From: Paralimibaculum aggregatum
GTDB lineage: Bacteria > Pseudomonadota > Alphaproteobacteria > Rhodobacterales > Rhodobacteraceae
Length of the DNA: 55,237 nt
Direction of reading: 5' to 3'
NCBI RefSeq assembly: GCF_030270585.1
Contig: NZ_BSYI01000034.1
Location: 1 to 55,237, forward strand
Below are positions 26,614 to 43,400 of the stretch, piece after piece. The translations under genes were made by a program, and so were the position numbers. The notes below the pieces were generated by a model. The model did not search any database, was not told the DNA's origin, and worked only from the letters and a program-made list of their open reading frames with translations. The stretch's first letter is position 1. Every line of letters begins with the position of its first letter.

Positions 26614-26632
26614 CCCCGGCGCTCAGCCGGGG
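26614..26632. terminator. Hairpin between convergent argG and GT4 gene
   Basis: CCCCGGC (26614-26620) pairs with GCCGGGG (26626-26632) around GCTCA, which contains the stop codon of the minus-strand gene. It is placed to end both transcripts; no T-tract is present. Confidence 0.45.
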
Positions 26633-27795
26633 CGCCGCGGGATCGCCGCGGCGAGCACCGCCTCGAGCTCGGCCACCATCAGCGCGGTGTCGAAGCGCCG
26701 CGCCACCGCGCGGGCGCGGGCGCCCATGCGGCGGCGCAGCGCCTCGTCCGCCGCCAGCCGGGCCAGCGCCGCCGCCTGCCCCGCGACATCGTCCGGGGCG
26801 AAGAGAAACCCGTTCTCCCCCTCGAAGACCTGGTCCGGGATGCCGCCGAGCCGGCTCGCGACGATCGGCAGCCCGCGGGCGCCGGCCTCGGTGATGGCGA
26901 CGCCGAACCCCTCGACCCAGCCGCCTGCCGGGCGGGAATGCAGGGTGAAGACATGCGCCTCGCCGAGCGCCTCTGCCACCGCCTCCGGCGCCAGCCAGCC
27001 CGCCAGCCGCACGCGCCCGGCCAGCGGCCCGGCGGCGCTGCGCGCGGCGATCTCGGCCCTCAGCGCACCGTCGCCGATATAGGTGAGCGCGATCTCCTGG
27101 CCCTCCCGCGCCAGCCGCTCCGCCGCCGCCAGCGTCTCGAGAACGCCCTTCTCGGGCGAGAGCCGGCCGACATTGACGATGCGCAGCGGCGCACCGGGGC
27201 AGCGCTCCGGCACCGGCGGCTCCACCAGCCCGGCCAGCGGCGTGCCGCAGGGGATCACGCTCCGCCCCGCCGGCAGGCCGAGCGGCGCCAGCGCCTCGAG
27301 CTGGTGCCGCCCCACCGCCACCAGATGCGCGGCCCGGTTGAGGTGCCGGCGGAGCGCGCCGCGATTGCCCGGCCAGGCGAGATAGGCAGAGGCGTCGCGG
27401 CCATGGACATGCAGGACCACCGGCAGCGCATCGCCCACGGCCTCCATCAGCGGGATGTAGTTCCAGGCGAAATGGCAGAGCACGCCGTCCAGCCCTGCGC
27501 CGAGCAGCGTCTCGCGCAGCGCGGCGCGGGCGCGGCTTCCGGGGCGCAGCGCCTCGGGCCGGCCGAGCCGCCCCAGCGCCCGGCGCCAGGTGGTGGCCGG
27601 AGGGCGCGGATCGCCGCCGAAGAGATGCGTCTCGAACTCCGCCGCCGCACCGCCGCCCAGCGCCTCGCCGTCGCGCCGCCAGCCGAAGAGCACCGGCTCG
27701 AAGCGCCGCAGCCCGCGGGCCTGGCGCAGGATCCAGACCTCCGAGGGCCGGTCGAGCTCGGTGGTCACGATGCCGAGCCGCGGGCGGCCGCTCAT
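26623..27795 (-). CDS. Glycosyltransferase family 4
   Basis: A 390-residue retaining GT-B enzyme. The C-terminal half has NVGRLSPEKG, a YIGDGALR strand, and the EX7E pair in WVEGFGVAITEAG that binds the nucleotide-sugar donor. The N-terminal acceptor domain has HVHGRDASAY. It should add a sugar to a lipid-linked oligosaccharide in the cytoplasm. It starts with an ATGA overlap on the flippase gene, so the two are coupled. Confidence 0.92.
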   Translation of the reverse strand: MSGRPRLGIVTTELDRPSEVWILRQARGLRRFEPVLFGWRRDGEALGGGAAAEFETHLFGGDPRPPATTWRRALGRLGRPEALRPGSRARAALRETLLGAGLDGVLCHFAWNYIPLMEAVGDALPVVLHVHGRDASAYLAWPGNRGALRRHLNRAAHLVAVGRHQLEALAPLGLPAGRSVIPCGTPLAGLVEPPVPERCPGAPLRIVNVGRLSPEKGVLETLAAAERLAREGQEIALTYIGDGALRAEIAARSAAGPLAGRVRLAGWLAPEAVAEALGEAHVFTLHSRPAGGWVEGFGVAITEAGARGLPIVASRLGGIPDQVFEGENGFLFAPDDVAGQAAALARLAADEALRRRMGARARAVARRFDTALMVAELEAVLAAAIPRRPG

Positions 27796-29339
27796 GCCGG
27801 GCCTCCCGCGCGCCGCCGCGCCAGCCGCTCGCGCAGCGCCCCAAGCTGGCGCAGCGCCCGCGTACGCATCCGCCGATGCGCCGGGTCGATCGCCGGCCAG
27901 AGCGCCAGCATCGCCGCCTGCGCCGCGCCGATTGCTGCGGCGTCGAGACCGAGCCGGAGCGCCGCTCCCGGCAGCCCGGCCCAGGGTGCCGCCAGCGCCA
28001 GCGCCGCCCCCACCGCGAAGCCGCCGAGCGCATAGGGCCCGGTCATCCGCAGCACCGCGAGCCAGCTCACCGGCGTGCCGCGGCAGGCGACGAAAAGCCC
28101 CGGCCCGACCAGCGCCAGCATCACCACCGAGAAGGTAAGCGCCACCGTCTCGATGCCGTGGGGCACCGCCAGCGCGAAGGCGCCGAGCATTGCCGGCGCG
28201 GTGCCGAGCAGTGTCCAGAGCAGCATCCGGCGGGTGCGGCCGAGCGAGAGATAGATCCAGCCGAGACAGTCCGCCAGCGCCGTCGCGAAGACCCCGCCGG
28301 CGAGCCAGGTCATCACGGTGGCGGCGCGCTCCCAGCCCGGACCGTAGACGATGGCGACGATCTCCGGCGCCGCCGCAACCAGGAGGGCGCCGACCCCGGC
28401 GGTGGCCACCGCGAGCAGGCCGGCTGCGTCGAGCAGCAGCGCGCGCCATTCCTCGGGCCGGTCCTGCAGGCGGCTGAGCGCCGGGATCAGCGCCGAGCTC
28501 ACCGGCCCGCGCAGCGCCTGCACGGGCAGCATCATCAGGTTGTAGGCGCGGGTGTAGAAGCCGAGCGGCCCGGCCCCCCAGAACCAGCCGATGAGCATGT
28601 TGTCGCCGTTGCGCTGGAAGTGGTTCAGCAGGTTGAAACCGGTGTAGTTGAGACCGAAGCGGATCGCCTCGCGCGCCGGCCGCAGATCCCGCACCAGGCT
28701 CGGGCGCCAGTCGGTCGCCCGCCAGAGCAGCGCGCTGGCCAGCGCCGCGGTGGCCAGCGGCTGCACCGCCAGCGCCCAGTAGCCGGCACCGGCGCCCCAG
28801 GCCAGGAGCACCGCGAGCAGGCTCCCGCCGAACTGGCCGAGGAGGTCGGCCCGCTGCAGCGCGACCCAGCGCATTCCCCGCATCAGCAGCGCCCGGTGCT
28901 GCGCGCCGAGGGCGTTGAACACCGCCGCCGTGGCCACCACGAGGGCGAGCGGCCCGACCTCCGGCGCGCCGTAGAGCCGCACCAGCAGGGGCGCCAGCGC
29001 CGCCGTCGCCAGCACCACCGCGCCGGCCATGGCGAGGTTGAGAAGGAAAAGCCCGCTGACCATCTTCTGGTCGATCTCGGGGCGCTGGACCGTGGCCTGC
29101 GCGAGGCCGAGATCGGTGAACAGCAGCACCATGCCCGTCAGCGTGAGCGCCATGGCATAGAGGCCGAAATCCTCCGGCAGCAGCAGCCGCGCGAGGCAGG
29201 CGGTCGCGCCCATCTGGATCGTCAGGCGCAGCGCCTGCGCGGCGAGGGCGATCCCGGCTCCCTGCGCCGCGCGCCGGCCGATCGACTGGCTCGCATCCGC
29301 CGCGGCGAGTGCGCGGGCATTGCGCTCGGCGCGGGTCAT
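27792..29339 (-). CDS. Wzx-type polysaccharide flippase (MOP superfamily)
   Basis: A 515-residue membrane protein with about 12-14 helices. The opening (AAQGAGIALAAQALRLTIQMGATACLARLL, then LPEDFGLYAMA) and the internal NGDNMLIGWFWGAGPLGFYTRAYNLMMLP region are typical of the WzxC/ExoT-type lipopolysaccharide transporters. It would flip undecaprenyl-linked repeat units across the inner membrane. It is coupled to the GT4 downstream and ends 74 bp from the beta-helix protein gene upstream on the same strand. Confidence 0.92.
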   Translation of the reverse strand: MTRAERNARALAAADASQSIGRRAAQGAGIALAAQALRLTIQMGATACLARLLLPEDFGLYAMALTLTGMVLLFTDLGLAQATVQRPEIDQKMVSGLFLLNLAMAGAVVLATAALAPLLVRLYGAPEVGPLALVVATAAVFNALGAQHRALLMRGMRWVALQRADLLGQFGGSLLAVLLAWGAGAGYWALAVQPLATAALASALLWRATDWRPSLVRDLRPAREAIRFGLNYTGFNLLNHFQRNGDNMLIGWFWGAGPLGFYTRAYNLMMLPVQALRGPVSSALIPALSRLQDRPEEWRALLLDAAGLLAVATAGVGALLVAAAPEIVAIVYGPGWERAATVMTWLAGGVFATALADCLGWIYLSLGRTRRMLLWTLLGTAPAMLGAFALAVPHGIETVALTFSVVMLALVGPGLFVACRGTPVSWLAVLRMTGPYALGGFAVGAALALAAPWAGLPGAALRLGLDAAAIGAAQAAMLALWPAIDPAHRRMRTRALRQLGALRERLARRRAGGPA

Positions 29340-29413: not shown

Positions 29414-32206
29414 TCAGGCGAGCAGCTCGGGATGCCAGGCGCCGGCCAGCCCCTCGGGCCCGAAGGCGGCGAAGTCGAGCAGATCGCCGGCATCGGCGCC
29501 GGCCCCGGCCAGCGCATCGAGGGCGGCCTCCGCCGCAGCCGCGCTGTCCTCCGGCCAGGGGGCGGCGGCGAGGAGGGCGTCGGCCAGCGCCTCCGCCGAC
29601 GCCTCGCCATGCCGCTCGAGGAACTCGATGCTGTCGGCGAAGCGGTCGGCGAGCCCGTCCGGCGCGACATGGCCCGCGGACAGCGCCGCCTCCCAGAAGG
29701 CGGCCCCGGCCGCATCCGCAGCCCGCCCGAAGGCGGTGAGGTAGAGCCGGTCGACCACCGAGGCGAGCTCGGTCTCGGCGGCGGGCAGGGGCGGCACCTC
29801 GCCGGCGAAACCGGTGCCGCCGTCGAGGCCGCCGCTGTCGCTGCCCGTATCGTTGCCCGAATCGTTGCCGGCATCGGCGTCCGCGTCCGGGGCGCCATCG
29901 GGGCCAGGCGCGCCGGCGCTGCCGGTCTCCGTCGGCCCCGGCGCCGCGAGCCCGCCCTGGCGCTGGCCGATCGCATCGGCATCCAGCGGGATCGCGGAGA
30001 TCTCGAGATAGTCGAGCGCGCCGTCGAACTGCGCCGTGCTGGCCGCCGCGCCGAGCTGCAGGTCGTAATACGAGGCCGGCGGCGTCGCGCCGGCAAAGCT
30101 CCCCACGCCCACCGAGACGCCGTCGACGAATATCTCGAGCCGGCCGGCGAAGGCGTCGAACACCACCGCGAGGTCGTGCCAGTTGCCGTCGAGCAGGTTG
30201 GCGCCGACACTCCGCAGCGCATGGCTGCCCTGGGTAGTCGAGAAGCTCACCGAGACCTCGCCATCCCCCTCGATGGTGAAGAAGCGGTCGCCATGCATCC
30301 GGAAGAAGACGCCGGCATCGGCCGGGGTGCCGGTGGCGGCACGCAGGCCGAACATCATCGTGCCCTGGAGCTGGTCGAGAAGCTGCGGCGTCGCGCCCCG
30401 GGCGATATGCGGCGAGACCGCGTCGCCGAGCACCACCGCAAGGCCGCCATCGCGCCCCTCGGTGAGGGTCTCCGCCCCGGAGAGCTCGAGCGTCTCGGCG
30501 AAGGGCGAGCGGTCCACCGGCCCCTCGGCGCCGATCTCGAGATGCAGGAGGCTGGTCTCCGGCACCTCGACGAAGCTGGTGCCGACATCCATGCTGCCAT
30601 CGGCATGGTGCACCTCGAGGCGCACGATATAGCCGCCGGGCTCGGCATAGACATGCGTCGCCGCGATGCCGCTGGCCTTGCTGCCGTCGCCGAAATCCCA
30701 GAGGAACTCGGCCTCGGCGGCATCCACCAGCCCTTCCGCATCGGCGGTGAGCCCGCCGTCGAAGGTGAAGCTGCCGTGCCGGCCGGGCACCTCGCGCACC
30801 ATGGCGAGCGCGGTCAGGCTCTCGGGGGTCGCCTCGAACCGCGTGCGGCTGGCGCCGACCCCCATGCTCTCGATCACCCCGCCGGGCAGCGCCTGCCAGT
30901 CCGCCAGATCGGAATAATGCGCCGCGCGTGCGTTGACGAAGAGCTCGTCGTAGAAGTTCTGGTGGTTGGGCGAGACGTCCTGCACGATCAGGTTGTTGTC
31001 GACATACCATTCGTCGCCCTCGCCGATGCGGATGTTGCTGGCGATGTTGTTGACGATCACCACGTCCAGCGAGGGTTTCTCGACATTGATCGAGGGCGGG
31101 CCATAGGAGCCGGTGGCGTTGTGCAGCAGGGTGTTGTTGCGCACCGTGACCCCCATTGCCTCGCCCACGGTGATGCCGTGGGTGTGGCCGCTGCGGACCA
31201 CGTTCTCCTCGATCAGGACGTTGCGATAGGCCATCTGCTCGAAGGGCAGGGTGCCGGTATCGACCATCTCGTTGCGCATGAAGATCGACTGCACGCCGTC
31301 TGCGGTGTTGCCGCTGTCGAACAGGTTGCCGCGGATCGTGATGTTCTCGGAGGGCCGGGTCTGCGTCGCGGTCCAGAACTGGATGAAGTCGACATGGTCG
31401 CCGGTCTCGGTGGCCTGCATGAAATCGTGGAAATAGTTGTCCTCGATCAGGATGTCGGTGGCCTGCGGCACCACGATGCCGTCCGAGCGCATCTCGGTGA
31501 TCTCATTGCCGCGGATCGCGATGTCGGCGACGTCCTGGACCATGATGCCGCGGAAGAACTGCCGGAACAGGTTGTCCTCGAGCGTGATCCCGCCGGCATC
31601 GCGCACCACGAGGCCGTAGCCCATCGGGAAGCCGCCGCCCTCGGGGATGCTGTCGCCGGGGCGCATGTCGCCGTCGAACACCGAGTTGCGGATGGTGATG
31701 CCCTGCGCGCCCTCGCCGATGGTGAAGGGCTTCCACTCCTCGCCCCGGTCCTCGACATCGAAGTCGAAGAGAAGGCCGTCGAGCGTGATGTTGGCCACGC
31801 CGTCGAGTTCGAGCCAGGTGAACTCAGCCGGGTCCGCCGGGTCCGCCGAGGCGATCTCGACCGGGTGGTCGTAGATCGCGAAGGTGTCGCCATGGCGGGC
31901 GCGCAGCATCAGATCGTATTCGCCGGGCGCGACGAGAATGCGCATCGGGCCGGCGGCGGCGGTCTGCAGCGCGGCACGAAGCTCGGCGCTGCTGGCGACG
32001 GTGACAGTCTCGATGGCCGTATCGGTCATGGTGTCGGTTCCCGTGGGAGCTGTGGTTGACGCCACAACTAACCCGGGCCCGTGAGCTTGGGGTTTACCCT
32101 CACGGTCAAGGAAGTCTTGCGTTGCCGGAACCGCGCCCGCCGGGGCGGCGAGCATCAGGGCGAGCGCGAAAGTCCGGGCGATGACGGCTGCGCTGGCGGG
32201 TCTCAT
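29414..32206 (-). CDS. Secreted beta-helix protein with PKD, LamG-like and DUF4214 domains
   Basis: A 930-residue modular protein. Residues 1-25 look like a Sec signal peptide. About 75-420 form a right-handed parallel beta-helix (repeated NITIRGN-, GITLEDN- and VLIEENVV-type coils), as in polysaccharide epimerases and lyases. About 500-540 is PKD-like (FLWDFGDGS). About 550-740 is LamG/concanavalin-like. A Gly/Asp/Ser linker follows near 770-797, and a DUF4214 domain (LYLTAFGRAADAAGAAFW) ends the protein. It probably modifies or cleaves the polysaccharide made here. The start at 32206 has GAGGAGG upstream; a second Met at 32029 (residue 60) would give a protein without signal peptide, as in type I-secreted relatives. 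Confidence 0.82.
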   Translation of the reverse strand: MRPASAAVIARTFALALMLAAPAGAVPATQDFLDREGKPQAHGPGLVVASTTAPTGTDTMTDTAIETVTVASSAELRAALQTAAAGPMRILVAPGEYDLMLRARHGDTFAIYDHPVEIASADPADPAEFTWLELDGVANITLDGLLFDFDVEDRGEEWKPFTIGEGAQGITIRNSVFDGDMRPGDSIPEGGGFPMGYGLVVRDAGGITLEDNLFRQFFRGIMVQDVADIAIRGNEITEMRSDGIVVPQATDILIEDNYFHDFMQATETGDHVDFIQFWTATQTRPSENITIRGNLFDSGNTADGVQSIFMRNEMVDTGTLPFEQMAYRNVLIEENVVRSGHTHGITVGEAMGVTVRNNTLLHNATGSYGPPSINVEKPSLDVVIVNNIASNIRIGEGDEWYVDNNLIVQDVSPNHQNFYDELFVNARAAHYSDLADWQALPGGVIESMGVGASRTRFEATPESLTALAMVREVPGRHGSFTFDGGLTADAEGLVDAAEAEFLWDFGDGSKASGIAATHVYAEPGGYIVRLEVHHADGSMDVGTSFVEVPETSLLHLEIGAEGPVDRSPFAETLELSGAETLTEGRDGGLAVVLGDAVSPHIARGATPQLLDQLQGTMMFGLRAATGTPADAGVFFRMHGDRFFTIEGDGEVSVSFSTTQGSHALRSVGANLLDGNWHDLAVVFDAFAGRLEIFVDGVSVGVGSFAGATPPASYYDLQLGAAASTAQFDGALDYLEISAIPLDADAIGQRQGGLAAPGPTETGSAGAPGPDGAPDADADAGNDSGNDTGSDSGGLDGGTGFAGEVPPLPAAETELASVVDRLYLTAFGRAADAAGAAFWEAALSAGHVAPDGLADRFADSIEFLERHGEASAEALADALLAAAPWPEDSAAAAEAALDALAGAGADAGDLLDFAAFGPEGLAGAWHPELLA

Positions 32207-32261
32207 CGGTGCCTCCTCGTGCCGGTGGCGGTGGCTGCAGCGGAAGCCGCGGCCCGCGGCG

Positions 32262-34532
32262 TCAGCGGCCGGGGCCGAACAGCAGCGCGCCATACTCTGC
32301 CGCAGCGCGCTCGACAGTGAAATCCCTCGCGCGGGCGCGCGCATCCGGCCCGCCACCGCGCAGCGTCTCGATCAGGGCCGCGGCGAGCGCCGGCGCGTCG
32401 TCGAGCGGCACGATGCGGCCCCAGCGGCCATCCTCCAGCACCTCGCGCGCCGAGGGCGGCCAGTCGGTGCTGACGATCGGCAGGCCCGCCGCCATCGCCT
32501 CCGGCAGCACGTTGGCCAACCCCTCGAAATGCGAGCTCATGGCGAAGGCATCGGCGCGCAGCATCCAGCTCGCCGGGTCATCGACGAAGCCCGGCATGTG
32601 CAGATGCCCGGCGATGCCGAGGCGCGCTGCCTGCGCCTCGAGCGCCGCCCGCTCCGGCCCCTCGCCGAGGATGGTCAGCTCCGCCGCCGGGATCTCCCGG
32701 CGCAGGGCCGCGAAGGCCTCGAGCATCAGCGGGTAGTTCTTCTGCCGCGCGAGGCGGCCGACCGCGAGGATCATCGGCGGCGCACCCGGCACGCGGGCAG
32801 GCCGCGGCGGGAACTTCGCGAAATCCACCACCGGGTTGTATATCGGCACGATCTTCGGCCGGAGCTTCGGGATCACCGTGCCGAGCTCGGTGCCGACGCC
32901 GTGCGAGACCGTCGCCACATGCGCGGGCAGATGCGCCGTGGCGCGCAGCATCTGGCGAAAGATCGGTGCCGCCACCGGCCCCATCGCCGCGATCACCGGC
33001 TGCGGCAGGTTCTGCGCCGACCAGACCAGCCGCGGCCGGTGCCGTGCCAGCATGACGCCGAGCGCCGCGGCAAGGTTCGTGTGCAGCATCAGCGAGAGCA
33101 GCGCCTTCGGCCGCGCCCGGTCGAGATAGCGCGCGATCGGCCGCGGCGCCGCGCGGGCCCGTCCGCAGCCGAGATCGACCAGCGGCACGCCCTCGGGCCG
33201 GCGCTGCCGCAGCGCGCCGGTGTCGGAGAACACCACGAGTTCGATCCGCCGGCCCTCCGCCTGCCAGGCGGCGGCAAGGTTGAGCGCCGCGCGCTCGGCG
33301 CCGCCGCCAGCAAAGTCGGGGATCAGGATCGCCGCGTCGGGGCTGTCCTCGCGCCGGCGGGCGAGCGCCGGGGCGGCGGGCGCGGCCGGCGCCGCTCCGA
33401 ACAGCACCTCGGCATAGGCATCGCAGGCGCGGTCGACGGTGAAATCCTCCGCCCGCCGGCGCGCATCCGGCCCGCCATCGCGCAGCGTCTCGGCCAGCGC
33501 CGCGGCCAGCGCCGGGGCATCGTCGAGCGGCACGATGCGGCCCCAGCGACCGTCCTCCAGCACCTCCCGCGCCGAGGGCGGCCAGTCGGTGCTGACGATC
33601 GGCAGCCCCACCGCCATCGCCTCCGGCACCACGTTGGCCAGCCCCTCGAAGCGCGAGCTCATCGCCAGCACATCGGCGCGGGCCATCCACTCCGCCGTAT
33701 CCGGCACGAAGCCGGGCATCGAGAGATCCCCGGCGATGCCGAGCCCTGCCGCCTGCGCCTCGAGCGCCGCGCGGTCCGGGCCCTCGCCGAGGATCACCAG
33801 TTTCGCCGGCATCTCCCGGCGCAGCAGCGCGAAGGCCTCGAGCAGCAGCGGGTAGTTCTTCTGCGGCGCCAGCCGCCCCACCGCCAGCACCATGGGCGGT
33901 GTGCCCGGCGCGCGCGGTCGGCGCGGCAGCACCTTGGCCGGATCGATGACCGGGTTGAAGATCGGCACGATCTTCGGCGCCAGCGCCGGCACCAGCTCGG
34001 CCAGCGCCGCCCCCACCCCCTCGGAGACCGTCACGACCCGGTCGGGCATGCCGGCGAAGCCGCGCAGCAGGCGCCGGAAGATCGCCCCGCGCAGCGGCCC
34101 CATCTCGGCGATCACCTCCTGCGGCAGGTTGCGCGCCGACCAGACGAACCGCGGCCGGTGGCGCGCCAGGCGCAGCCCGATGGAGGCGGCGACGCAGGTG
34201 TGGATCATCAGGGCCAGCAGCACCCGCGGCCGGGCGCGGTCGACATAGCCGGCGATGGCGCGCGGGGCCGAGCGGGCGCGGGTGCAGCCGAGCTCGACGA
34301 TGACGACATCCTCCGGCACGTCCCCCACCAGCGGCCCGCGCCGGGAGAACACCACGAGCTCCACCCGCCGTCCCTCGGCGGCGAAGTTGCGGGCCAGGGT
34401 GATCGCCGCGCGCTCGGCGCCGCCGCCGGCGAAATCCGGCAGCAGGATCGCGAGGTCCGGCCCGTCGGCAGCCCCGGCGGCGGGCGCGATGGCAGCGGGC
34501 GCTGCAGCGTCGGAGGGATGGGCGTCGGGCAA
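32262..34532 (-). CDS. Double glycosyltransferase: two tandem GT4 units in one chain
   Basis: A 756-residue protein made of two complete GT4 (GT-B) units. Unit 1 spans about residues 25-386 and unit 2 about 397-756, joined by a short Ala/Pro linker. Both begin IL(L/I)PDFAGGGAER and contain AVGRLA-QKNYPL, ILGEGP-RAALEAQA and the EX7E pair in FEGLANV-PEAMA. Both catalytic motifs are intact, so both may be active, adding two sugars or polymerising. It reads away from the GT2 gene at 34677, with a shared promoter gap between. It could also be annotated as two genes, but no stop or start separates the units. Confidence 0.92.
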   Translation of the reverse strand: MPDAHPSDAAAPAAIAPAAGAADGPDLAILLPDFAGGGAERAAITLARNFAAEGRRVELVVFSRRGPLVGDVPEDVVIVELGCTRARSAPRAIAGYVDRARPRVLLALMIHTCVAASIGLRLARHRPRFVWSARNLPQEVIAEMGPLRGAIFRRLLRGFAGMPDRVVTVSEGVGAALAELVPALAPKIVPIFNPVIDPAKVLPRRPRAPGTPPMVLAVGRLAPQKNYPLLLEAFALLRREMPAKLVILGEGPDRAALEAQAAGLGIAGDLSMPGFVPDTAEWMARADVLAMSSRFEGLANVVPEAMAVGLPIVSTDWPPSAREVLEDGRWGRIVPLDDAPALAAALAETLRDGGPDARRRAEDFTVDRACDAYAEVLFGAAPAAPAAPALARRREDSPDAAILIPDFAGGGAERAALNLAAAWQAEGRRIELVVFSDTGALRQRRPEGVPLVDLGCGRARAAPRPIARYLDRARPKALLSLMLHTNLAAALGVMLARHRPRLVWSAQNLPQPVIAAMGPVAAPIFRQMLRATAHLPAHVATVSHGVGTELGTVIPKLRPKIVPIYNPVVDFAKFPPRPARVPGAPPMILAVGRLARQKNYPLMLEAFAALRREIPAAELTILGEGPERAALEAQAARLGIAGHLHMPGFVDDPASWMLRADAFAMSSHFEGLANVLPEAMAAGLPIVSTDWPPSAREVLEDGRWGRIVPLDDAPALAAALIETLRGGGPDARARARDFTVERAAAEYGALLFGPGR
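32395..32520 (-). repeat. Best-conserved block of the internal duplication, copy 2
   Basis: This 126-bp block aligns without gaps to 33517-33642 with about nine mismatches by eye. It encodes the donor-binding PIVSTDWPPSAREVLEDGRW region in the second GT4 unit. Confidence 0.85.
33517..33642 (-). repeat. Best-conserved block of the internal duplication, copy 1
   Basis: Direct-repeat partner of 32395-32520, 1122 bp away, in the first GT4 unit. Most differences fall at third codon positions or are conservative. Confidence 0.85.
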
Positions 34533-34613
34533 GGCGGCAGTCTCCGGAGAACCTGTCCGGCCTCTCTAGAGGATGTGCCGCAGATGCGAAAGGCTCCGAC
34601 GGGGGCTCCGGCG

Positions 34614-34642: not shown

Positions 34643-34676
34643 GCCCCGGAGCCGGAACGGCAGGGCGAGGCGCGAC

Positions 34677-35885
34677 ATGGCCGAGGAGCGAGACGCAGGG
34701 GCGCCCGGTGCAGGCGCACGCGAGGCAGTCGACCCGGACCCCGTTGCGGGGCCGGTCGCTGCGCCGGGCGGCGCGCTGCCGGCCTATGACGCGGTGATGG
34801 CCACGCGCAACCGGCCGGAGGCGGTGGCGCTCTCGCTGCCGCTCCTGCGCGGGCAGACGGTGCCGCCGAAGCGGGTGGTGATCGTGGACGCATCGGACGA
34901 CCCCGCGCCGGTGGCGGCGCTGGTCGCCGGTGCCAATGCCGGACCCGGACCGGAGGTCATGCTGCTGCGTGCCGCGGCCTCCTCCTCGGCGCAGCGCAAT
35001 CGCGGGCTCGAGGCGCTCGAGGCAGCGGGCGGCGCGGCGGAGGTCGTGCTGTTCCCGGACGACGATTCGCTGCTCTATCCGGATGCCATGGCGGAGATCC
35101 TGGCGGTCTATGCCCGTGACCCGGGCATCGCCGCGGTCTGCGCCGCCGAGGCCCGCGTGCCGCCGCCGGGGGTGGATCTCGGCGCGGCCTATGTCGCGCC
35201 ACCACCGGGCAGGCTGCGCCGCACTGCGCAGCGCCTGCGCCAGCGCGTCACCGAGGCGGCCGCGGGGGCGAACCCCTTCCTTGCCATCGGGCGGCGGCTC
35301 GGCGGGCAGCACCCACCGCCCGGCTGGCTCGGCGAGCGCGGCACGGTGGCGGTGCCCTACATGACCGGGTTCCGCATGTCGTTCCGCCGTGCCGCGCTGG
35401 CCCGCGGCGGGGCCGTCCCCGACGGTTTCGACGAGACGCTCACCCGCTATGCCTGGTTCGAGGACATCGAGGCCAGCTTCGCCGCGATGGCGCACGGGCC
35501 GGTGCTCGGCGCCGAACGGGCGCTGATCTACCACCACCGCTTCCCCGGGCGCCGCGGCGACGGCTTTCCCGTGGGTCTCTGGTCGGTGCTCAACCGCGCC
35601 TATGTGGCGATGCGGCACGTGCGGGCGAACCCGGCACTGTTCCCGCGCCCCGGGCGGGAGGCCTGGCGCCTCAGGCTCTATCTCGCGGGGCGGGCTGCGG
35701 CCTACCGGCTGATGGCGCGCGACGACTGGAGCCGGGCACGGGCGCGCGGCGCGGCGGCGGGGCTCCGGCATGTCGGGCCGCTGCTGGCGCCGGAGACGCC
35801 GGAGGAGGGCCTCTCCGCGCGCTATCGCGGCCTGATGGGGCGCCTTGCGCCGGAGGCCGGGCCGCCGCGCCTGCCCGAAGGCTGA
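34677..35885 (+). CDS. Glycosyltransferase family 2
   Basis: A 402-residue GT-A enzyme. After about 35 disordered residues, the domain opens with YDAVMATRNRPEAVALSL, the acceptor-side QRNRGLEAL motif follows, and the metal-binding acidic triplet is in LFPDDDSLLYPD. A WFEDIEASF motif provides the likely catalytic acid. The C-terminal 100 residues are basic and helical. The ATG at 34677 has GGGCGAGG upstream; an earlier in-frame Met exists. Its last 64 bp overlap the convergent Wzy-like gene. Confidence 0.88.
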   Translation: MAEERDAGAPGAGAREAVDPDPVAGPVAAPGGALPAYDAVMATRNRPEAVALSLPLLRGQTVPPKRVVIVDASDDPAPVAALVAGANAGPGPEVMLLRAAASSSAQRNRGLEALEAAGGAAEVVLFPDDDSLLYPDAMAEILAVYARDPGIAAVCAAEARVPPPGVDLGAAYVAPPPGRLRRTAQRLRQRVTEAAAGANPFLAIGRRLGGQHPPPGWLGERGTVAVPYMTGFRMSFRRAALARGGAVPDGFDETLTRYAWFEDIEASFAAMAHGPVLGAERALIYHHRFPGRRGDGFPVGLWSVLNRAYVAMRHVRANPALFPRPGREAWRLRLYLAGRAAAYRLMARDDWSRARARGAAAGLRHVGPLLAPETPEEGLSARYRGLMGRLAPEAGPPRLPEG

Positions 35886-37465
35886 TCGCCGGCGGAGAGG
35901 TCGGGGCCGCCGGGCGCGGATGGCGGCAGCCCCTCGCGCGCGAGATTGCGGAACTTCGGCTTCGGCGGCGCCTCGGCACCGGCCTCCGCCGCGTCCGTCT
36001 CGTCGGCATCCGCGCCATCGCCCGTGCCGGCGTCCTGCGGGCCGGTCCCCGCCGCGCCGACCCTGAGCCCGGCGCGCCGCAGCGGCCGGGGCGCCTTCGC
36101 GGGCCGCGCACCGGCACGGCGCTCGCGCCGCGTGGGCGCCTCGGGCATCCGGCCGGTCGCCGGGTCCATCCGCGCCAGCACCGCCGCGATGCCGATGAAG
36201 AAGGCGAAGAGCGGCTCCAGCTTGTCGAAGAAGGCCACGGTCGCGCCGGCGAAGCAGAGCGCCACGATGGCATAGAGCGCGGCCCGCCGCAGCCGCGCGA
36301 AGGCCGGCGACACCCGCGCGTCCGGCTCGAGCATCAGCGTCCGCAGCATCAGGATCAGCGAGAGGATCAGCAGGCCCGCAGTGGGCAGGCCGCCGCGCAT
36401 CATCATCACCAGCCACTGGTTGTCGACCGAGGGCGCCATCCAGTGCGGCCGGGTCCAGTTGGACGCCTCGAAGCCGAAGATCGGGTGGCGCATCACGTCG
36501 TCGATCCCGTGGTTCCAGGTCGCGATCCGGTAATGCGCGGTGCCGGGATTGAGCGTGAGGTAGTTGGCGAGCACGCCGAAGGGCCCGCTGTTGGCGGCGA
36601 ACTCGAGGAAGACATAGGCCGTCAGCAGCGCCCAGAAGAGCAGCTTGGCACGGTTCGGAACCCAGCGGCTCTGGCTCTCGCCGACGATCAGCAGGATCTG
36701 CAGCACGAGCGTGAGATAGGAGCCCGACGAGACCGAGAAGAAGGTGGCCAGCCCGACGATCAGCGCCTTGGCCAGCCGCACCGGCATGCTCGACGCGGAA
36801 TACCAGACGAAGGAGAAGATCGTCGCGCAGAACACGCCGAACAGGATCGGATGCGCGAAGGAGGCGGCGGCGCGCAGCAGGCCCAAGCGGCGGTCGTCCT
36901 GCATCCGCGGCTCGAAGCCGAAGATCGCGGTGAAGAACTCGGTGAGGACGCGGTGCCCGGTATAGCTTTCATAGGCCGCGAAGGGCAGCAGGAAGAGCAC
37001 GATCAGGAAGCCGACCCGGAACACGATGTCGATCTGCTCGACCCGCCTGATCGAGATCTGCACGAGGCAGTAGGTGCCGATGCTCTGCACGAAGTAGATG
37101 CCGGAAAACTCGACCCCCTGACCGAGCCCGCGCGAGAGGATGTTGCAGAAGCAGTACCAGCACACCGCGCCGAAGAAGAGATAGTCCCAGTTGCGCAGCC
37201 GGTGGGCGGAAAGGAAGCCGAGGATCGCCGGCACCGTCACGAGGATCAGGAAGATCCGCAGCGGGCTGAGGGCGAGCCCGCCGAGCGAGAAGAAGGCCGA
37301 GGCCGGCACCGCCATCAGCGCCATGAACAGGCAGGCGAGGACCGGCACCTCGACCCGGTCGGCGCGGGCGCCGATGCGCCCCGTCCCGGTTTCGCCCGTG
37401 TCCTTCCGGCGCCCGCGGCGCAGCGCGCCGGGCCGCCCCGGCGTGTCGGTCTCGGTGATCGCCAT
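35822..37465 (-). CDS. Wzy / O-antigen ligase-like membrane protein
   Basis: A 547-residue protein with about ten membrane helices. The large periplasmic loop holds HYRIATWNHGIDDVMRHPIFGFEASNWTRPHW-type sequence, the feature shared by O-antigen ligases and Wzy polymerases. It should polymerise or ligate lipid-linked repeat units in the periplasm. The N-terminal 35 residues are polar. The last 110 residues are a Pro/Ala/Arg-rich disordered tail absent from typical members. It overlaps the convergent GT2 gene by 64 bp. The ATG at 37465 is the first Met consistent with the family. Confidence 0.85.
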   Translation of the reverse strand: MAITETDTPGRPGALRRGRRKDTGETGTGRIGARADRVEVPVLACLFMALMAVPASAFFSLGGLALSPLRIFLILVTVPAILGFLSAHRLRNWDYLFFGAVCWYCFCNILSRGLGQGVEFSGIYFVQSIGTYCLVQISIRRVEQIDIVFRVGFLIVLFLLPFAAYESYTGHRVLTEFFTAIFGFEPRMQDDRRLGLLRAAASFAHPILFGVFCATIFSFVWYSASSMPVRLAKALIVGLATFFSVSSGSYLTLVLQILLIVGESQSRWVPNRAKLLFWALLTAYVFLEFAANSGPFGVLANYLTLNPGTAHYRIATWNHGIDDVMRHPIFGFEASNWTRPHWMAPSVDNQWLVMMMRGGLPTAGLLILSLILMLRTLMLEPDARVSPAFARLRRAALYAIVALCFAGATVAFFDKLEPLFAFFIGIAAVLARMDPATGRMPEAPTRRERRAGARPAKAPRPLRRAGLRVGAAGTGPQDAGTGDGADADETDAAEAGAEAPPKPKFRNLAREGLPPSAPGGPDLSAGDQPSGRRGGPASGARRPIRPR

Positions 37466-37732: not shown

Positions 37733-39244
37733 ATGACAGAGACGGGCTCCAGGGCATTACCGGCGGCGGCGGGGGACGACCCAGCCGGCGAGACGGCGCC
37801 GCCTGCGGGCAGGGCCGCCCCGGGCCGCGTGCTCGCGATCGATCTCGACGGGACGCTGATCCGCAGCGACATGCTGGTGGAGTGCTTCGCCGCGGCCATG
37901 AGCGCGGCGCCGCTGGCGGCGCTCGGCGCGCTGCTCGGTGGCGGCGGGCGGGCCGGGCTCAAGGCGCGGCTGGCGGCGCTGGCGGCGCCGGATGTCGCCA
38001 CGCTGCCCTATGAGCCGGCGGTGCTGGCGGAGGCCGAGCGCGCCCGCGCCGCAGGGCGGCGGGTGGTGCTGGTCTCGGCCGCCGATGCCGGTCTGGTCGC
38101 GGCGGTGGCGGCGCATCTCGGGCTGTTCGACGAGGCCCATGGCACGACGCCCGGGCACAATCTCAAGGGTCCGCGCAAGCGCGACTTCCTGGTTGAGCGC
38201 TTCGGCGCCGGCGGGTTCGACTATATCGGCGATGCGCGGGCCGATCTGGCGGTCTGGCAGGCGGCGCACACCCCGATCACCGCCGGGGCCGGCGCGGGGC
38301 TCCGGCGCGCCGCCGAGGCGCTTTCGCCCGAGGCGCGCCACCTCGCCCCGGCGCCGGGCGCCGCAGCCCGGGCGCTGCCCTATATCCGCGCCATGCGGCC
38401 GCATCAGTGGCTGAAGAACCTGTTGCTGCTGCTGCCAGCGATCATGGCGCACCGGCTCGACGGCGCGGTGCTCGGCCCGGTGCTGATGGCCTTCGTCGCC
38501 TTCTGCCTCGCAGCCTCCAGCGTCTACCTGGTCAACGACCTGCTCGACCTGGCGGCAGACCGGGCGCATCCGCGCAAGCGCCGGCGGCCCTTCGCCAGCG
38601 GCGCGGCGGGGCTCGCGCCGGGGGCGGCGCTGGCGCTCGGCCTGGGGCTGGTGGCCTGGGGCATCGCGCTCTTCCTGCCGCTCGCCTTCGGGCTGTGCCT
38701 GCTGGCCTATGGCGGGCTGACGCTGGCCTATTCGCTGGTGCTCAAGCGCCGGCTGATGATCGACATCGTGACGCTGGCCGGGCTCTTCACGCTGCGCATC
38801 CTGGCCGGCGGCGCCGCCGCGGCGATCGCGATCTCGCCCTGGATGATCGGCTTCTCGGGGTTCCTGTTCCTCGCGCTCGCGGCGGTGAAGCGCCAGGCCG
38901 AGCTGGCCGATGCCGCGCGCCGGGGGCTCGAGGCGGTGGCCGGGCGGGCCTGGCGGTCGGAGGATCTGCCGGTCGCCACCATGGTCGCCGTGGCCGCGGC
39001 GCATGCCGCGGTGCTGGTGCTGGCGCTCTACATCGCCAGCCCCGATGTGCAGGCGCTCTATCGCCGTCCGATGATGCTCTGGGCGGCCTGCCCGGTGCTG
39101 CTCTACTGGCTGGTGCGGATCGTGCTGATCGGTCAGCGCGGCGAGATGCATGACGACCCGCTGGTCTTCGCCATCCGCGACGGGACGAGCCTGTTCTGCG
39201 CCTGTCTGCTGGCCTCCATCGGGCTCGCCGCGGGGCCGGTCTGA
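37733..39244 (+). CDS. HAD phosphatase-UbiA fusion (prenyl-phosphate phosphoribosyltransferase type)
   Basis: A 503-residue fusion. The N-terminal half is a HAD domain: the nucleophile motif DLDGT at residues 37-41, a VLVSAADAG motif II, a lysine in NLKGPRKR and DYIGDARADL motif IV. From about residue 222 a UbiA domain with nine helices follows, beginning MRPHQWLKNLLLLLP and carrying the Mg-binding NDLLDLAADRAHPRK motif. This UbiA subtype transfers phosphoribose from PRPP to prenyl phosphate. The HAD domain may then remove the 5-phosphate. It leads the DprE1/DprE2-like genes, 12 bp before the next start, which supports an arabinofuranose-donor role. Confidence 0.88.
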   Translation: MTETGSRALPAAAGDDPAGETAPPAGRAAPGRVLAIDLDGTLIRSDMLVECFAAAMSAAPLAALGALLGGGGRAGLKARLAALAAPDVATLPYEPAVLAEAERARAAGRRVVLVSAADAGLVAAVAAHLGLFDEAHGTTPGHNLKGPRKRDFLVERFGAGGFDYIGDARADLAVWQAAHTPITAGAGAGLRRAAEALSPEARHLAPAPGAAARALPYIRAMRPHQWLKNLLLLLPAIMAHRLDGAVLGPVLMAFVAFCLAASSVYLVNDLLDLAADRAHPRKRRRPFASGAAGLAPGAALALGLGLVAWGIALFLPLAFGLCLLAYGGLTLAYSLVLKRRLMIDIVTLAGLFTLRILAGGAAAAIAISPWMIGFSGFLFLALAAVKRQAELADAARRGLEAVAGRAWRSEDLPVATMVAVAAAHAAVLVLALYIASPDVQALYRRPMMLWAACPVLLYWLVRIVLIGQRGEMHDDPLVFAIRDGTSLFCACLLASIGLAAGPV

Positions 39245-39255
39245 GGCGCCCGGCA

Positions 39256-40662
39256 ATGGACATGGACAGCGCGCGCGATCTCGCCCCCCCGCCTGCCGCC
39301 GGCCGGTGCCCGCCGCTCGCGTCGGCGGAGCTCGCGGGCTGGGGCCGGGTGCCGCGCCGCCGCGGAGCCCTCGCCGCGCCGCGCGACGCGGCGGAGCTGG
39401 CCGCCCTGCTGCGCGCCGGGCGCCCGGCGATCGCCCGCGGGGCGGGGCGGGCCTATGGCGATGCGGCACTCGCCGCCGAGGGGGGGCTCGCGCTCTCGAT
39501 GCACCGGTTCGACCGGCTGCTCGGCTTCGACCCCGCTTCCGGAACGCTCACCGCCGAGGCCGGCGTGGTGCTCGGCGACCTGATCCGCGCGATGCTGCCG
39601 CGGGGCTGGTTTCCCGCCGTGACGCCCGGCACGCAATACGCCACGCTCGGCGGGCTGATCGCCGCCGATGTGCACGGCAAGAACCACCATGTCGCCGGCA
39701 GCTTCGGCGCGCATCTCGGCTGGATCGATCTGATGGGGGCAGACGGGGAGATCCGCCGGGTGAGCCCCGAGACCGACCCGGCGCTCTTCGCCGCCACCTG
39801 CGGCGGCATGGGGCTCACCGGGGTCATCCTGCGCGCCGCGCTCCGCCTGCAGCCGGTGGAGAGCGGATGGATCCGCGAGGAAACGGTGGCCGCCGGCAGC
39901 CTCGATGCCGGCATGGCTGCCTTCGATGCCGCCGAAGCCCGTGCGGATGCGCCGCCCTATTCGGTGGCCTGGATCGACACGCTGGCGCGCGGGCCAGAAC
40001 GGGGGCGGATGCTGCTGCATCTCGGCGCCCATGCGACGGCCGCGGAGCTCGAGGGCCGCGACCCCTACGCAACGCCGCCGCGCAGGAGCCTCACGGTGCC
40101 GATGGACGCGCCCTCATGGCTGCTCAACGGGCTCACCATGGGCGCCTTCAACGCGCTCTACTGGGCGGCCGGGCAGCGCCGCGCCGCCGCCGGGCCGCGG
40201 CTGACCGACTGGGAGCGCTACTTCTACCCGCTCGACGCGCTGCATGGCTGGAACCGGCTCTATGGCCGCCGCGGCTTCCTGCAGGTGCAATCCGTGCTGC
40301 CCGCCGCGCCGGCCCGCGACGCGCTGGCCGAGATGCTCGATGCGAGCGCCGCCGCCGGGCTCGGGTTTCTCGGCGTGCTCAAGCGCTTCGGGCCGCAGGC
40401 GAGCCCGTTCTCCTTCCCCCGTGCCGGCTGGACGCTGGCGCTCGACATCCCCGCCGGCTGGCGCGGCCACGAGCTGGCCGACCGGCTCGAGGCCATCGCC
40501 GCCGCGGCCGGGGGGCGCTTCTATCTCGCCAAGGATGCCCGCCTCACCCGCTCCCGCTTCGAGGCGACCGAGCCGCGCGCCGCCGCCTTCCGCGCGCTGC
40601 GGCAGGAGCGCGGGCTTGCGGGACGCTTCGCCTCTGCCCAATCGGAAAGGCTCGGATTGTGA
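39256..40662 (+). CDS. DprE1-like FAD oxidoreductase
   Basis: A 468-residue flavoenzyme of the decaprenylphosphoryl-ribose 2-oxidase family. FAD-binding segments are GAGRAYGDAALA, ATLGGLIAADVHGKNHHVAGSFG and GGMGLTGVI. The C-terminal substrate domain has LKRFGP, GWTLALDIP and the YLAKDAR lysine. It should oxidise the 2-hydroxyl of prenyl-phospho-ribose, the first epimerisation step. At the position of mycobacterial Cys387 (GWNICVDF) this protein has Ala. It lies between the UbiA fusion and the DprE2-like gene. Confidence 0.92.
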   Translation: MDMDSARDLAPPPAAGRCPPLASAELAGWGRVPRRRGALAAPRDAAELAALLRAGRPAIARGAGRAYGDAALAAEGGLALSMHRFDRLLGFDPASGTLTAEAGVVLGDLIRAMLPRGWFPAVTPGTQYATLGGLIAADVHGKNHHVAGSFGAHLGWIDLMGADGEIRRVSPETDPALFAATCGGMGLTGVILRAALRLQPVESGWIREETVAAGSLDAGMAAFDAAEARADAPPYSVAWIDTLARGPERGRMLLHLGAHATAAELEGRDPYATPPRRSLTVPMDAPSWLLNGLTMGAFNALYWAAGQRRAAAGPRLTDWERYFYPLDALHGWNRLYGRRGFLQVQSVLPAAPARDALAEMLDASAAAGLGFLGVLKRFGPQASPFSFPRAGWTLALDIPAGWRGHELADRLEAIAAAAGGRFYLAKDARLTRSRFEATEPRAAAFRALRQERGLAGRFASAQSERLGL

Positions 40663-41411
40663 CAATGCCGCTTCCCCCCGCCGACAGCCCGGTGCTGATC
40701 CTCGGCGCGCGCTCAGACATTGCCCGGGCGCTGGCCCATGAGTATGCCGCCGCCGGCCATCCGCTGATGCTGGCGGCGCGCGATCCGGCAACGCTGGCGG
40801 CGGACTGCGCCGATCTCGCGCTGCGCCACGGGGTGACCGCCACGGCGCATGCCTATGACGCGCTGGATCTCGGTGCGATAGCCGCCTTCTTCGAGGCATT
40901 GCCGGCAACGCCCCGGGTGGTGATCCAGGCGGTCGGCTATCTCGGCGAGCAGGCCCGCGCCGAGGCCGATCCGCAGGAGGCCGCGCATGTCGTCGCCGCC
41001 AATCTCATCGGCCCCGCCGCGGCGCTCGAGGAGGCCGCCCGGCGGCTTGCCGCCGCAGGGGGCGGCACGATCATCGGCCTGTCCTCGGTGGCGGGCGAGC
41101 GCGGCCGCGCCAAGAACCACTGGTACGGCGCCGCGAAGGCCGGCCTCACCGCGGTGCTTTCCGGGCTCCGCCAGCGCTGGTGGCGCGAGGGCGTGCAGGT
41201 GCTCACCGTCAAGCCGGGCTTCGTCGCGACCCGGATGACCGAGGGCATGGACCTTCCCGCGCCGCTTACCGACAGCGCGGCCGGGCTCGCGCGCCACGTG
41301 AAACGCGCCGCCGACAGGGGCCGCGCGGTCTACATGCCGTGGAAATGGCGCCTGGTGATGGGGGTGATCTGCGCGCTGCCGGAAACCGTTTTCAAACGCC
41401 TCAGCTTCTAG
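40659..41411 (+). CDS. DprE2-like short-chain dehydrogenase
   Basis: A 250-residue classical SDR with an atypical nucleotide motif, LILGARSDIARALAHEYA, as in DprE2. The catalytic Ser lies in GLSSVAGERGR and Tyr/Lys in WYGAAKAGL. The C-terminal MPWKWRLVMGVICALPETVFKRL segment is membrane-proximal. It should reduce the 2-keto intermediate to prenyl-phospho-arabinose. The start is probably GTG at 40659, overlapping the upstream stop (GTGA) with GGAAAGG nearby; ATG at 40665 is the alternative. Confidence 0.92.
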   Translation: MTMPLPPADSPVLILGARSDIARALAHEYAAAGHPLMLAARDPATLAADCADLALRHGVTATAHAYDALDLGAIAAFFEALPATPRVVIQAVGYLGEQARAEADPQEAAHVVAANLIGPAAALEEAARRLAAAGGGTIIGLSSVAGERGRAKNHWYGAAKAGLTAVLSGLRQRWWREGVQVLTVKPGFVATRMTEGMDLPAPLTDSAAGLARHVKRAADRGRAVYMPWKWRLVMGVICALPETVFKRLSF

Positions 41412-41435: not shown

Positions 41436-42374
41436 ATGGAGCCCGCGATCGCCCCCGACACCGCCCCTGCCCCGCAGATCTCCGTCGTGATCCCGCATCT
41501 CAACCAGCCGGCGGAGCTCGCCCGCGGGCTCGCGGCGCTGGCGGCGCAGGCGGACGCACCGCCCTTCGAGGCGATCGTGGTGGACAACGGCTCCGCCGTG
41601 CTGCCCGAGACCGAGGTCGCGGCGCATCCCTTCGCGCGCCTCCTGGCGGAGCCCGAGCCCGGCCCCGGCCCGGCGCGCAACCGCGGCGCCGCGGCGGCCC
41701 GCGCCCCGGTGCTCGGCTTCATCGACGCCGACTGCCGCGCCGCCCCGGGCTGGCTCGCGGCGATCTGGTCGCGGCTCGGCCCCGAGGCGCCCGGCCGGCC
41801 GGAGGTGCTCGGCGGCGATGTCCGCATTCCCCGCGAGGCGCCGCGCACCTCCGCGCTGGAGGCCTATGAGAGCATCTATGCCTACCGCATGGAGCACTAC
41901 ATCGCGCGGCAGGGCTTCACCGGCACCGGCAATCTCGCGATGCGGGCAGAGAGCTTTGCCCGCGTCGGCCCCTTCGCCGGCATCGGCGTCGCAGAGGACC
42001 GCGACTGGGGCCGCCGTGCCGGCGCGCTGGGGCTCGGCCTCGGCTATGTGCCGGAGATGGTGGTGTATCACCCGGCGCGGCGGAGTTTCACGGAGTATTT
42101 CGCCAAGATCGACCGGCAGATGGCGCATGATTTCGCCGAGCTGCCGCGCGGCGCCGGTGCCCGGTTGCGCTGGGCTGCCAAGGCGGCCGCGCTGGCGCTC
42201 TCGCCGCCGGCGGAACTGCCCCGGATCCTGCGCGAGGACCGGGTCGCCGGCCCGCGCGAGCGGGCGCTGGCCATCTATGCCCTCGCGCGCATCCGGGCCT
42301 ATCGCGCGCGGCGGATGCTGGCGCTGCTGGTGGCCGGCGATGCCCGCCGCGGCGCCGCCACCTGGAACCGCTGA
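41436..42374 (+). CDS. Glycosyltransferase family 2
   Basis: A 312-residue GT-A enzyme. It opens with ISVVIPHLNQPAEL, then VDNGSA, the PARNRGAAAA motif and the metal-binding FIDADCR. The likely catalytic region is GVAEDRDWGRRA. It ends in a basic helical segment. It lies 24 bp after the DprE2-like gene and 12 bp before another GT2, so all are probably in one operon. Its sugar donor cannot be told from sequence. Confidence 0.9.
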   Translation: MEPAIAPDTAPAPQISVVIPHLNQPAELARGLAALAAQADAPPFEAIVVDNGSAVLPETEVAAHPFARLLAEPEPGPGPARNRGAAAARAPVLGFIDADCRAAPGWLAAIWSRLGPEAPGRPEVLGGDVRIPREAPRTSALEAYESIYAYRMEHYIARQGFTGTGNLAMRAESFARVGPFAGIGVAEDRDWGRRAGALGLGLGYVPEMVVYHPARRSFTEYFAKIDRQMAHDFAELPRGAGARLRWAAKAAALALSPPAELPRILREDRVAGPRERALAIYALARIRAYRARRMLALLVAGDARRGAATWNR

Positions 42375-42386: not shown

Positions 42387-43400
42387 ATGGCCACCCGTGA
42401 CCCGGCCGCCGAGGGCGCCGGCGAGGCCCCGCCCCCGCCACCGCCCGCCCCGGAGGTCTCCATCCTCGTGGTGAGCTACAACACCCGCGAAATGACGCTG
42501 GCTTGCCTCGCCTCGGTGATCGCCGAGACACCGGAGCTGCCGCACGAGCTGATCGTGCTCGACAACGCGTCCGCCGACGGCTCGGCCGATGCCATCGCAG
42601 CCGCGCATCCGGACATTCCCCTGATCCGGCTCGCCGAGAACATCGGCTTCGGGCGCGGCAACAACCGGGCGGCGGAGGCGGCGCGGGGGCGCTACCTGCT
42701 GCTGCTGAACCCGGATACCGTGGTCCGCGACCGCGCCATCGAGCGGCTGGTGGCCTTCGCCCGGCGCCGTCCGGAGGCCATGATCTGGGGCGGGCGGACG
42801 ATCTTCGCCGACGGTTCCCCCAATCCGAGCTCCGCCTGGGGCCGCCTCTCGCTCTGGTCGCTCACCGCCTTCGCCACCGGGCTCTCCGTCCTGTTCCCGC
42901 GCTCCGAGCTGACCAATCCGGAGGGGATCGGCGGCTGGGGGCGCGACACCGAGCGCGGGGTCGATATCGTCTCCGGCTGCTTCCTGCTGATCGAGCGGGC
43001 GTTCTGGGAGCGTCTCGGCGGCTTCGACCCGGATTACTTCATGTATGCCGAGGAGGCCGATCTCTGCCACCGCGCCCGCGCCCTCGGCGCCCGGCCGCGC
43101 TGCACGCCGGAGGCGATGATCGTCCACCACGGCGGCGCCTCCGAGCGGGTGCGTACCGAGAAGGCGCTGCGCCTGCTCTCCGGCAAGGCAACGCTGATCG
43201 CCAAGCACTGGAGCCCCCCTGCGGCCTGGGCGGGGCGCAACCTCTACAGGCTCGGGGTCGGGCTCAGGGCGCTCGGCTACGGGCTGGCGGCGCGGCTCAC
43301 CGGGCGCCAACGCCACCGCGAGGCGGCCGAGCCCTGGGCCGCGCTCTGGCGCCGGCAGGCAGAGTGGATCCGCGGCTACCCCCCGGCCGGGGAGCGCTGA
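42387..43400 (+). CDS. Glycosyltransferase family 2, rhamnosyltransferase-like
   Basis: A 337-residue GT-A enzyme. Motifs: SILVVSYNTREMTLACL, LDNASADGSADAI, ENIGFGRGNNRA, LLLNPDTVV (metal binding), a VSGCFLLIERAFWERLGGFDPDYFMYAEEADLCHR block and a VHHGGAS strand. This set is typical of dTDP-rhamnosyl and related transferases, although the donor is inferred. The first 20 residues are Pro/Ala-rich. It closes the plus-strand operon begun by the HAD-UbiA gene. Confidence 0.92.
   Translation: MATRDPAAEGAGEAPPPPPPAPEVSILVVSYNTREMTLACLASVIAETPELPHELIVLDNASADGSADAIAAAHPDIPLIRLAENIGFGRGNNRAAEAARGRYLLLLNPDTVVRDRAIERLVAFARRRPEAMIWGGRTIFADGSPNPSSAWGRLSLWSLTAFATGLSVLFPRSELTNPEGIGGWGRDTERGVDIVSGCFLLIERAFWERLGGFDPDYFMYAEEADLCHRARALGARPRCTPEAMIVHHGGASERVRTEKALRLLSGKATLIAKHWSPPAAWAGRNLYRLGVGLRALGYGLAARLTGRQRHREAAEPWAALWRRQAEWIRGYPPAGER

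Follow-up and report, generated by a model that had tools for sequence, protein, structure and literature searches.

A predicted lipid-linked D-arabinofuranose donor module beside polysaccharide genes in the alphaproteobacterium Paralimibaculum aggregatum

A contig stretch of Paralimibaculum aggregatum, in the following called the window (55,237 bases, 72% GC, G000:C34:1-55237; genome of 5.5 Mb, 201 contigs, 98.7%-complete), contains three consecutive genes. The first encodes a UbiA-type phosphoribosyltransferase with a fused HAD domain, the second a DprE1-type oxidase and the third a DprE2-type reductase. In mycobacteria, a three-gene set of this kind produces the membrane-bound donor of cell-wall D-arabinose. 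As the window enzymes match Rv3806c-type phosphoribosyltransferase, DprE1 and DprE2, a prenyl-phospho-D-arabinofuranose (D-Araf) donor is their best reading. The chemistry is well predicted from sequence and structural models, and we consider it very likely that the module makes such a lipid-P-D-Araf donor. Probably, this polyprenyl-phospho-D-arabinofuranose is also flipped and its Araf moved by a GT-C glycosyltransferase to a surface glycan, most likely that of the surrounding locus.

In the proposed pathway, the fused HAD half would take off the 5′-phosphate, DprE1 would oxidise C2′ and DprE2 would then reduce it with inversion, yielding polyprenyl (probably undecaprenyl)-phospho-D-arabinofuranose. 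The lipid-P-D-Araf would next be flipped, with the Wzx protein of the locus and a PF03706 protein encoded on contig C2 as candidates, and a GT-C enzyme would transfer Araf to a surface glycan, most likely the product of the surrounding glycosyltransferase (GT), Wzx and Wzy-like genes. A first, low-confidence candidate for the transferase is the single GT87 protein, encoded on contig C3. We infer undecaprenyl as the probable lipid, D-Araf as the product and a glycan as the acceptor.

Enzymes of the predicted donor module

The three open reading frames (ORFs; Table 1) are intact. The HAD-UbiA and DprE1 genes are 11 bases apart, the GTG start of DprE2 overlaps the DprE1 stop (an alternative ATG lies at 40665), and the codon-position GC signal backs the reading frame of all three. 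The initial annotation had rightly placed three plus-strand genes at 37733-41411. Its UbiA, DprE1-like and DprE2-like calls are borne out by profile and PDB matches, but it had overlooked the HAD half of the first protein, in which HAD (about residues 31-200) is fused to UbiA (about residues 206-498).

The fusion protein scored 564 bits with NCBIfam model PRK08238 and 126-152 bits, all under the cut-offs, with three NCBIfam models of decaprenyl-phosphate phosphoribosyltransferases. In Pfam, UbiA (PF01040) reached 68 bits and HAD (PF12710) 26.1 bits, just below its cut-off of 27. At E ≤ 0.001, PDB sequence matches were limited to decaprenyl-phosphate phosphoribosyltransferase, 8j8j (E 4.8e-28) and 8j8k. 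An AlphaFold model built with 34 sequences had a predicted local distance difference test score (pLDDT) of 92.3; in a Foldseek comparison, the UbiA half of the model aligned with 8j8j (31% identity; TM-score, normalised to the target length, 0.83), and its HAD half matched phosphoserine phosphatases and other folds of the HAD type. Across the 34 HAD-UbiA proteins, N268, D269, D272, D276, R387 and E390 (window numbering) were invariant, and D37 and D39 of the HAD half nearly so. By its 8j8j match, TM-score and invariant residues, the UbiA half groups with Rv3806c and carries the Asp-rich motif, and the HAD half, by D37/D39 and its fold matches, is the predicted 5′-phosphoribose phosphatase. Further UbiA matches in the genome lie on contigs C6 (217 bits), C41 (200 bits) and C30, where a separate ORF of 284 aa is part of a gene cluster (L007, 6842-13291) that, as we take it, resembles the ebo cluster.

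ORF15 of Citrobacter, likewise a HAD-UbiA fusion, makes prenyl-P-ribose, which is used by a GT-C enzyme, and a flippase was proposed (PMC11127046, PNAS 2024). Judged by spacing, and with no alignment to ORF15, the window residues fit N247, D248, D251, D255, R366, E369 and D18 of this protein. According to PMC11127046, alanine mutants of the loop-II residues N247, D248, D251 and D255 lost activity in vitro, with D251A partly active in vivo, and R366A and E369A retained activity.

The window DprE1 scored 377 bits (E 1e-112) with NF053785, below the equivalog cut-off of 500, and matched PDB entry 4aut (E 2.5e-79). The His and Asn of HGKNHH and the Lys of YLAKD were constant in all 71 rows of a DprE1 tree, i.e., 60 of the 80 loci described below, ten relatives and the window (the other 20 loci, whose ORF matches were shorter, were left out). 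One column held Ala in 69 rows and Thr in two; we take it to be the position of the mycobacterial cysteine labelled by benzothiazinones. DprE2 scored 156 bits with NF053786 (cut-off 250), which ranked second to the generic short-chain dehydrogenase/reductase (SDR) model PRK07102 (279 bits). Its best PDB match was the solved DprE2 21gq_C (E 3.7e-22), and the YxxxK motif is present. Both the oxidase and the reductase of a donor module are hence found. A profile comparison with DprE1, DprE2 and Rv3806c-type UbiA, proposed earlier as a check, gave matches for all three, DprE1 and DprE2 staying under the strict cut-offs. We read these scores as distance from the actinobacterial enzymes, and that the reactions are the same is argued from pairing and gene order. 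All three enzyme identities are supported by homology, structure and residues.

Could the module stop at polyprenyl-P-D-ribose or yield another pentose such as xylose or lyxose? The sub-cut-off scores would allow this and, as described in PMC11127046, ribofuranose is added in Citrobacter O1, which lacks the epimerase, and xylofuranose (Xylf) in O2, which has an SDR epimerase. However, DprE1 and DprE2 are both present, intact and with conserved residues kept, and the Xylf epimerase of that report is one GalE-like SDR in contrast to the pair found here. We regard a different pentose as very improbable.

Distribution and layout of the gene set

A scan of genome contigs confirmed at least 577 DprE1 relatives. 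Layouts were counted in the best 80 of these at least 577, excluding the window itself; low-GC loci may be under-called. DprE2 lay near DprE1 in 76/80 loci and UbiA of the module type within 4 kb in 60/80, with HAD and UbiA in one ORF in 40/80. A module-type GtrA was found in 48/80, in the order UbiA-GtrA-DprE1 in 42/80, and loci such as L060, with another GtrA farther away, come on top of these counts. The commonest layout was HAD-UbiA, GtrA flippase, DprE1, DprE2. That the gene set recurs across loci was counted in favor of the D-Araf donor. GT87 genes occurred within 5 kb in 6/80 DprE1 loci (in 3/80, no DprE1 was called in the gene set used); other multi-transmembrane (multi-TM) proteins, several without a Pfam match, lay near DprE1 in more loci than GT87.

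In same-family relatives, we observed a second DprE1/DprE2 locus type (L105-L112; G007, G028, G014, G017, G005, G011, G020, G016) that forms a separate clade of the DprE1 tree. Here, a PF03706 flippase-like gene instead of GtrA lies directly upstream of DprE1 (8/8), together with a topA relative in 7/8 and an RcpC/CpaB pilus-gene relative in 7/8 stretches (Tad genes of L106 confirmed by Pfam). Arabinosylation of a Tad/Flp pilus is possible for this type. Moreover, HAD-UbiA/GtrA/DprE1/DprE2 operons on two contigs titled Nocardioides marinus and an Actinobacteria bacterium (L032, L035) fell within the mostly alphaproteobacterial DprE1 clade of the window, i.e., they were either horizontally transferred or the contigs are misassigned.

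Flippase, transferase and acceptor

Several results, in addition to the sub-cut-off DprE1 and DprE2 scores, weigh against the proposed pathway. No GtrA gene lies between the module genes in the window, and a search of the genome with PF04138 (GtrA) at E ≤ 0.01 gave no match; with this profile, 8 of 14 control genomes were positive. No GT-C was recognised in the window, where every ORF of at least 400 aa with at least seven predicted TM helices has another family match or is Wzy-like. GT87 is not tied to DprE1, as it occurred in 6/11 genomes with DprE1 and in 9/50 others (61 genomes), and none was present in G015, which has the closest DprE1 of the ten other DprE1 genomes. The Wzy-like call stays below the Pfam cut-off (PF04932 Wzy_C, 23.7 versus 31.7 bits). 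Finally, in G011, a relative with HAD-UbiA in a similar polysaccharide region, DprE1 and DprE2 lie at a separate locus on contig C25. With no GtrA detected in locus or genome and no GT-C recognised in the window, use of the donor is hence a prediction. The initial annotation had passed over the fact that neither of the two partners on which donor use depends, a flippase and a GT-C transferase, is seen in the locus.

In the DprE1 tree, in which five rows including that of the window were flagged for unusual residue composition, the nearest relative of the window was Oceanicella actignis (Paracoccaceae; support 100/98). Both belong to a clade of 28 rows (support 100/100) in which GtrA lies nearby in 27, the window being the sole exception. 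As a second approach, the genome was searched with 31 module GtrAs, all of which match PF04138, and nothing was found even at E ≤ 1, a search without positive control. Small multi-TM ORFs of the window, in all six frames, were confined to 18.5-20.3 kb. The GtrA searches thus revealed no dedicated flippase of a three-component system; EmrE/ArnE-type flippases were not searched for in the genome. Because 27 of 28 clade rows keep GtrA and none was detected here, GtrA was probably lost in this genome, unless an assembly gap hides it. For the GtrA-family protein Rv3789, a role in flipping the arabinose lipid was proposed, and a competing view given in the same source sees it as an anchor protein (PMC7389260). 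The PF03706 gene on contig C2 lies between GT2 and FAD oxidoreductase genes and is only distantly like DprE1-linked PF03706 proteins.

The probable loss of GtrA within a clade that otherwise keeps it could mean that the module is decaying, i.e., that with the flippase lost and no dedicated GT-C seen its enzymes no longer feed a glycan. The long DprE1 end branch (0.52, median 0.26) would agree with this, but the branch of the Oceanicella sister row, which has GtrA, is about as long (0.49), and the three ORFs are intact, have overlapping or near-touching ends and keep their catalytic residues. We consider decay improbable. Equally doubtful is that, after GtrA loss, a non-GtrA flippase (a PF03706 protein or the locus Wzx) and an uncharacterised transferase, possibly the Wzy-like protein, make an Araf-containing exopolysaccharide.

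The genome search for GT-C enzymes, suggested earlier, brought up one GT87 (contig C3, 416 aa) and two PMT_2 matches, all on other contigs; GT-Cs invisible to Pfam would escape it. GT87 was rejected as a strict module partner on the above genome counts, and the protein found here scores higher against same-family GT87s than against module-linked ones. Its gene (L102:8132-9382) directly follows a thiamine-pyrophosphate (TPP) enzyme gene (acetolactate-synthase-like) and precedes one for ketol-acid reductoisomerase, surroundings that are unusual for a membrane glycosyltransferase. The PMT_2 gene on contig C2 adjoins GT2 and LAB_N genes and so probably serves another donor.

The polysaccharide genes around the module (Table 1) agree with the initial annotation, which had named a Wzy-like gene, here upstream on the minus strand with a sub-threshold Wzy_C match, and two GT2s downstream in a locus that also has Wzx. 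The Wzx of a Wzx/Wzy-dependent locus is hence present. Single-sequence folding of the Wzy-like protein gave no usable model (pLDDT 43.8). An initiating phosphoglycosyltransferase or Wza/Wzc was not found among the window proteins scanned, with 1-13 kb mostly outside the domain scan and the genome not searched. The large beta-helix protein could be a glycan carrier, binder or lyase.

Table 1. Donor module and neighboring polysaccharide genes in the window
Feature	Position	Strand	Remarks
Fused HAD phosphoribose-phosphatase / UbiA-type polyprenyl-phosphate phosphoribosyltransferase (PRP-PPPRS), predicted	37733..39244	+	503 aa
DprE1-type FAD oxidase (predicted 2′-oxidation of polyprenyl-P-ribose)	39256..40662	+	468 aa
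DprE2-type SDR reductase (predicted 2′-keto reduction)	40659..41411	+	250 aa
GT2 glycosyltransferase GT2a	41436..42374	+	PF00535 62 bits; no predicted transmembrane helix
GT2 glycosyltransferase GT2b	42387..43400	+	PF00535 77 bits
Wzy-like polymerase/ligase, multi-TM, divergent from module	35822..37465 (start approximate)	-	PF04932 23.7 bits, cut-off 31.7; 7 TM by hydropathy
GT2-like glycosyltransferase	34665..35885 (start approximate)	+	PF00535 25.8 bits
Protein with two GT4 glycosyltransferase domains	32262..34535 (start approximate)	-	PF13692, 2 stretches, 232 bits
Large beta-helix/PKD/LamG/DUF4214 protein	29414..32356	-	PF13229, PF18911, PF13385, PF13946 over cut-offs
Wzx-type (MOP) flippase	27792..29339	-	PF13440 238 bits; about 8 kb from module
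GT4 glycosyltransferase	26623..27831 (start approximate)	-	PF00534 102 bits

GT2a was matched at E ≤ 1e-30 in 44 of 248 sampled same-family genomes, P. aggregatum included. We fetched 18 of the 43 other neighborhoods (11-19 kb each; tblastn, E ≤ 1e-5) and found relatives of GT2b in 6/18, Wzy in 5/18, the LamG protein in 5/18, DprE1 and DprE2 in 0/18 and HAD-UbiA in 1/18 (G011, L165). As GT2a relatives thus occur without DprE1 in all 18 and the donor users known from PMC11127046 are GT-C enzymes, GT2a or GT2b is thought unlikely to be the arabinosyltransferase. Conversely, relatives of the window genes were rare in the 80 DprE1 loci, with Wzx in one, GT2a in one, the double-GT4 protein in two and Wzy, GT2b and LamG in none, in a tblastn count in which unrelated polysaccharide genes were not sought.

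These counts would fit a module that makes lipid-P-D-Araf for another acceptor (pilin, lipopolysaccharide or a separate arabinan) and came to lie beside polysaccharide genes by chance insertion, as would the second DprE1 type near Tad/Flp pilus genes and the location of the only GT87 on another contig between the TPP-enzyme and ketol-acid reductoisomerase genes. On the other side stands G011 (L165/L174, contig C4), where HAD-UbiA (53% on the UbiA half) likewise shares one region with GT2a, Wzx (PF13440, 208 bits) and a beta-helix protein, with GT2b and Wzy relatives a few kb further on (Wzy_C 28.7 bits, sub-threshold). In the window itself, the two GT2 genes run in the direction of the module, and only short gaps separate these genes. 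Another acceptor appears unlikely, but is more probable than decay or a different pentose. Among the hints that the module works for polysaccharides of this kind, the G011 region, a single case, is the best. Of the claim that the locus makes a surface glycan with D-Araf, the donor enzymes stand and G011 favors the link, but the tie to the locus glycan is one of position. D-Araf in that glycan is plausible.

Relation to known systems

The window has homologues of three enzymes of the mycobacterial decaprenyl-phospho-arabinose pathway (Rv3806c, Rv3807c, DprE1, DprE2, Rv3789), namely its phosphoribosyltransferase, DprE1 and DprE2, and solved enzymes with these names are the best PDB matches. In contrast to that pathway, the window phosphatase is a fused HAD domain, and a counterpart of the GtrA-family Rv3789 is missing. 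Devosia, like P. aggregatum, is an alphaproteobacterium. For Devosia submarina, a polymer of alpha-D-Araf was described by nuclear magnetic resonance (PMC8707391); the main text of that paper does not contain the word 'biosynthesis', and it offers no Devosia genes for comparison. In Azorhizobium caulinodans, noeC-noeH-noeO might make a D-arabinose precursor, a proposal based on their resemblance to arabinosylation proteins of mycobacteria (PMC2443382). These are alphaproteobacterial genes, too, but unlike the window genes they belong to a nod operon, and a Nod-factor signal molecule is arabinosylated. The group IV pilin of Pseudomonas aeruginosa carries alpha-1,5 D-Araf (PMC11841053), and the reference list of that paper includes a title that calls TfpW a GT-C family arabinosyltransferase. 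This is D-Araf addition in a Gram-negative bacterium, but with pilin as the acceptor; Pseudomonas PPPRS, according to PMC11127046, has no PRP domain, unlike the fusion in the window.

The three-component system of Citrobacter youngae O1/O2 (ORF15 PPPRS-PRP, ORF14 flippase, ORF12 GT136; PMC11127046) shares with the window an N-terminal HAD fused to a UbiA-type phosphoribosyltransferase, motif residues fitting by spacing and the setting in a polysaccharide locus. The window differs in having DprE1/DprE2 and in that no GtrA-type flippase and no GT-C were recognised in the locus. DprE1/E2 homologues were reported in candidate systems for Araf-containing glycans in the same paper. Given the Citrobacter, Azorhizobium, Pseudomonas and Devosia reports, neither the module nor D-Araf in an alphaproteobacterium is new. 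In view of the at least 577 DprE1 relatives and of reports on D-Araf or its genes in Gram-negatives including alphaproteobacteria (PMC8707391, PMC2443382, PMC11127046), the earlier statement that D-Araf is uncommon in Gram-negative glycans is not supported. The window module hence belongs to a known kind of system, its missing flippase gene being unexplained.

The finding leaves the known pathway unchanged. It shows the D-Araf donor module, familiar mainly from mycobacteria, to occur widely among alphaproteobacteria, in settings that vary from loci without recognised polysaccharide genes to the vicinity of pilus genes and polysaccharide loci. If an Araf exopolysaccharide were indeed made without the standard flippase/GT-C pair, this would be a rewired pathway. 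A genome without the usual GtrA is a place where the flippase question can be tested.

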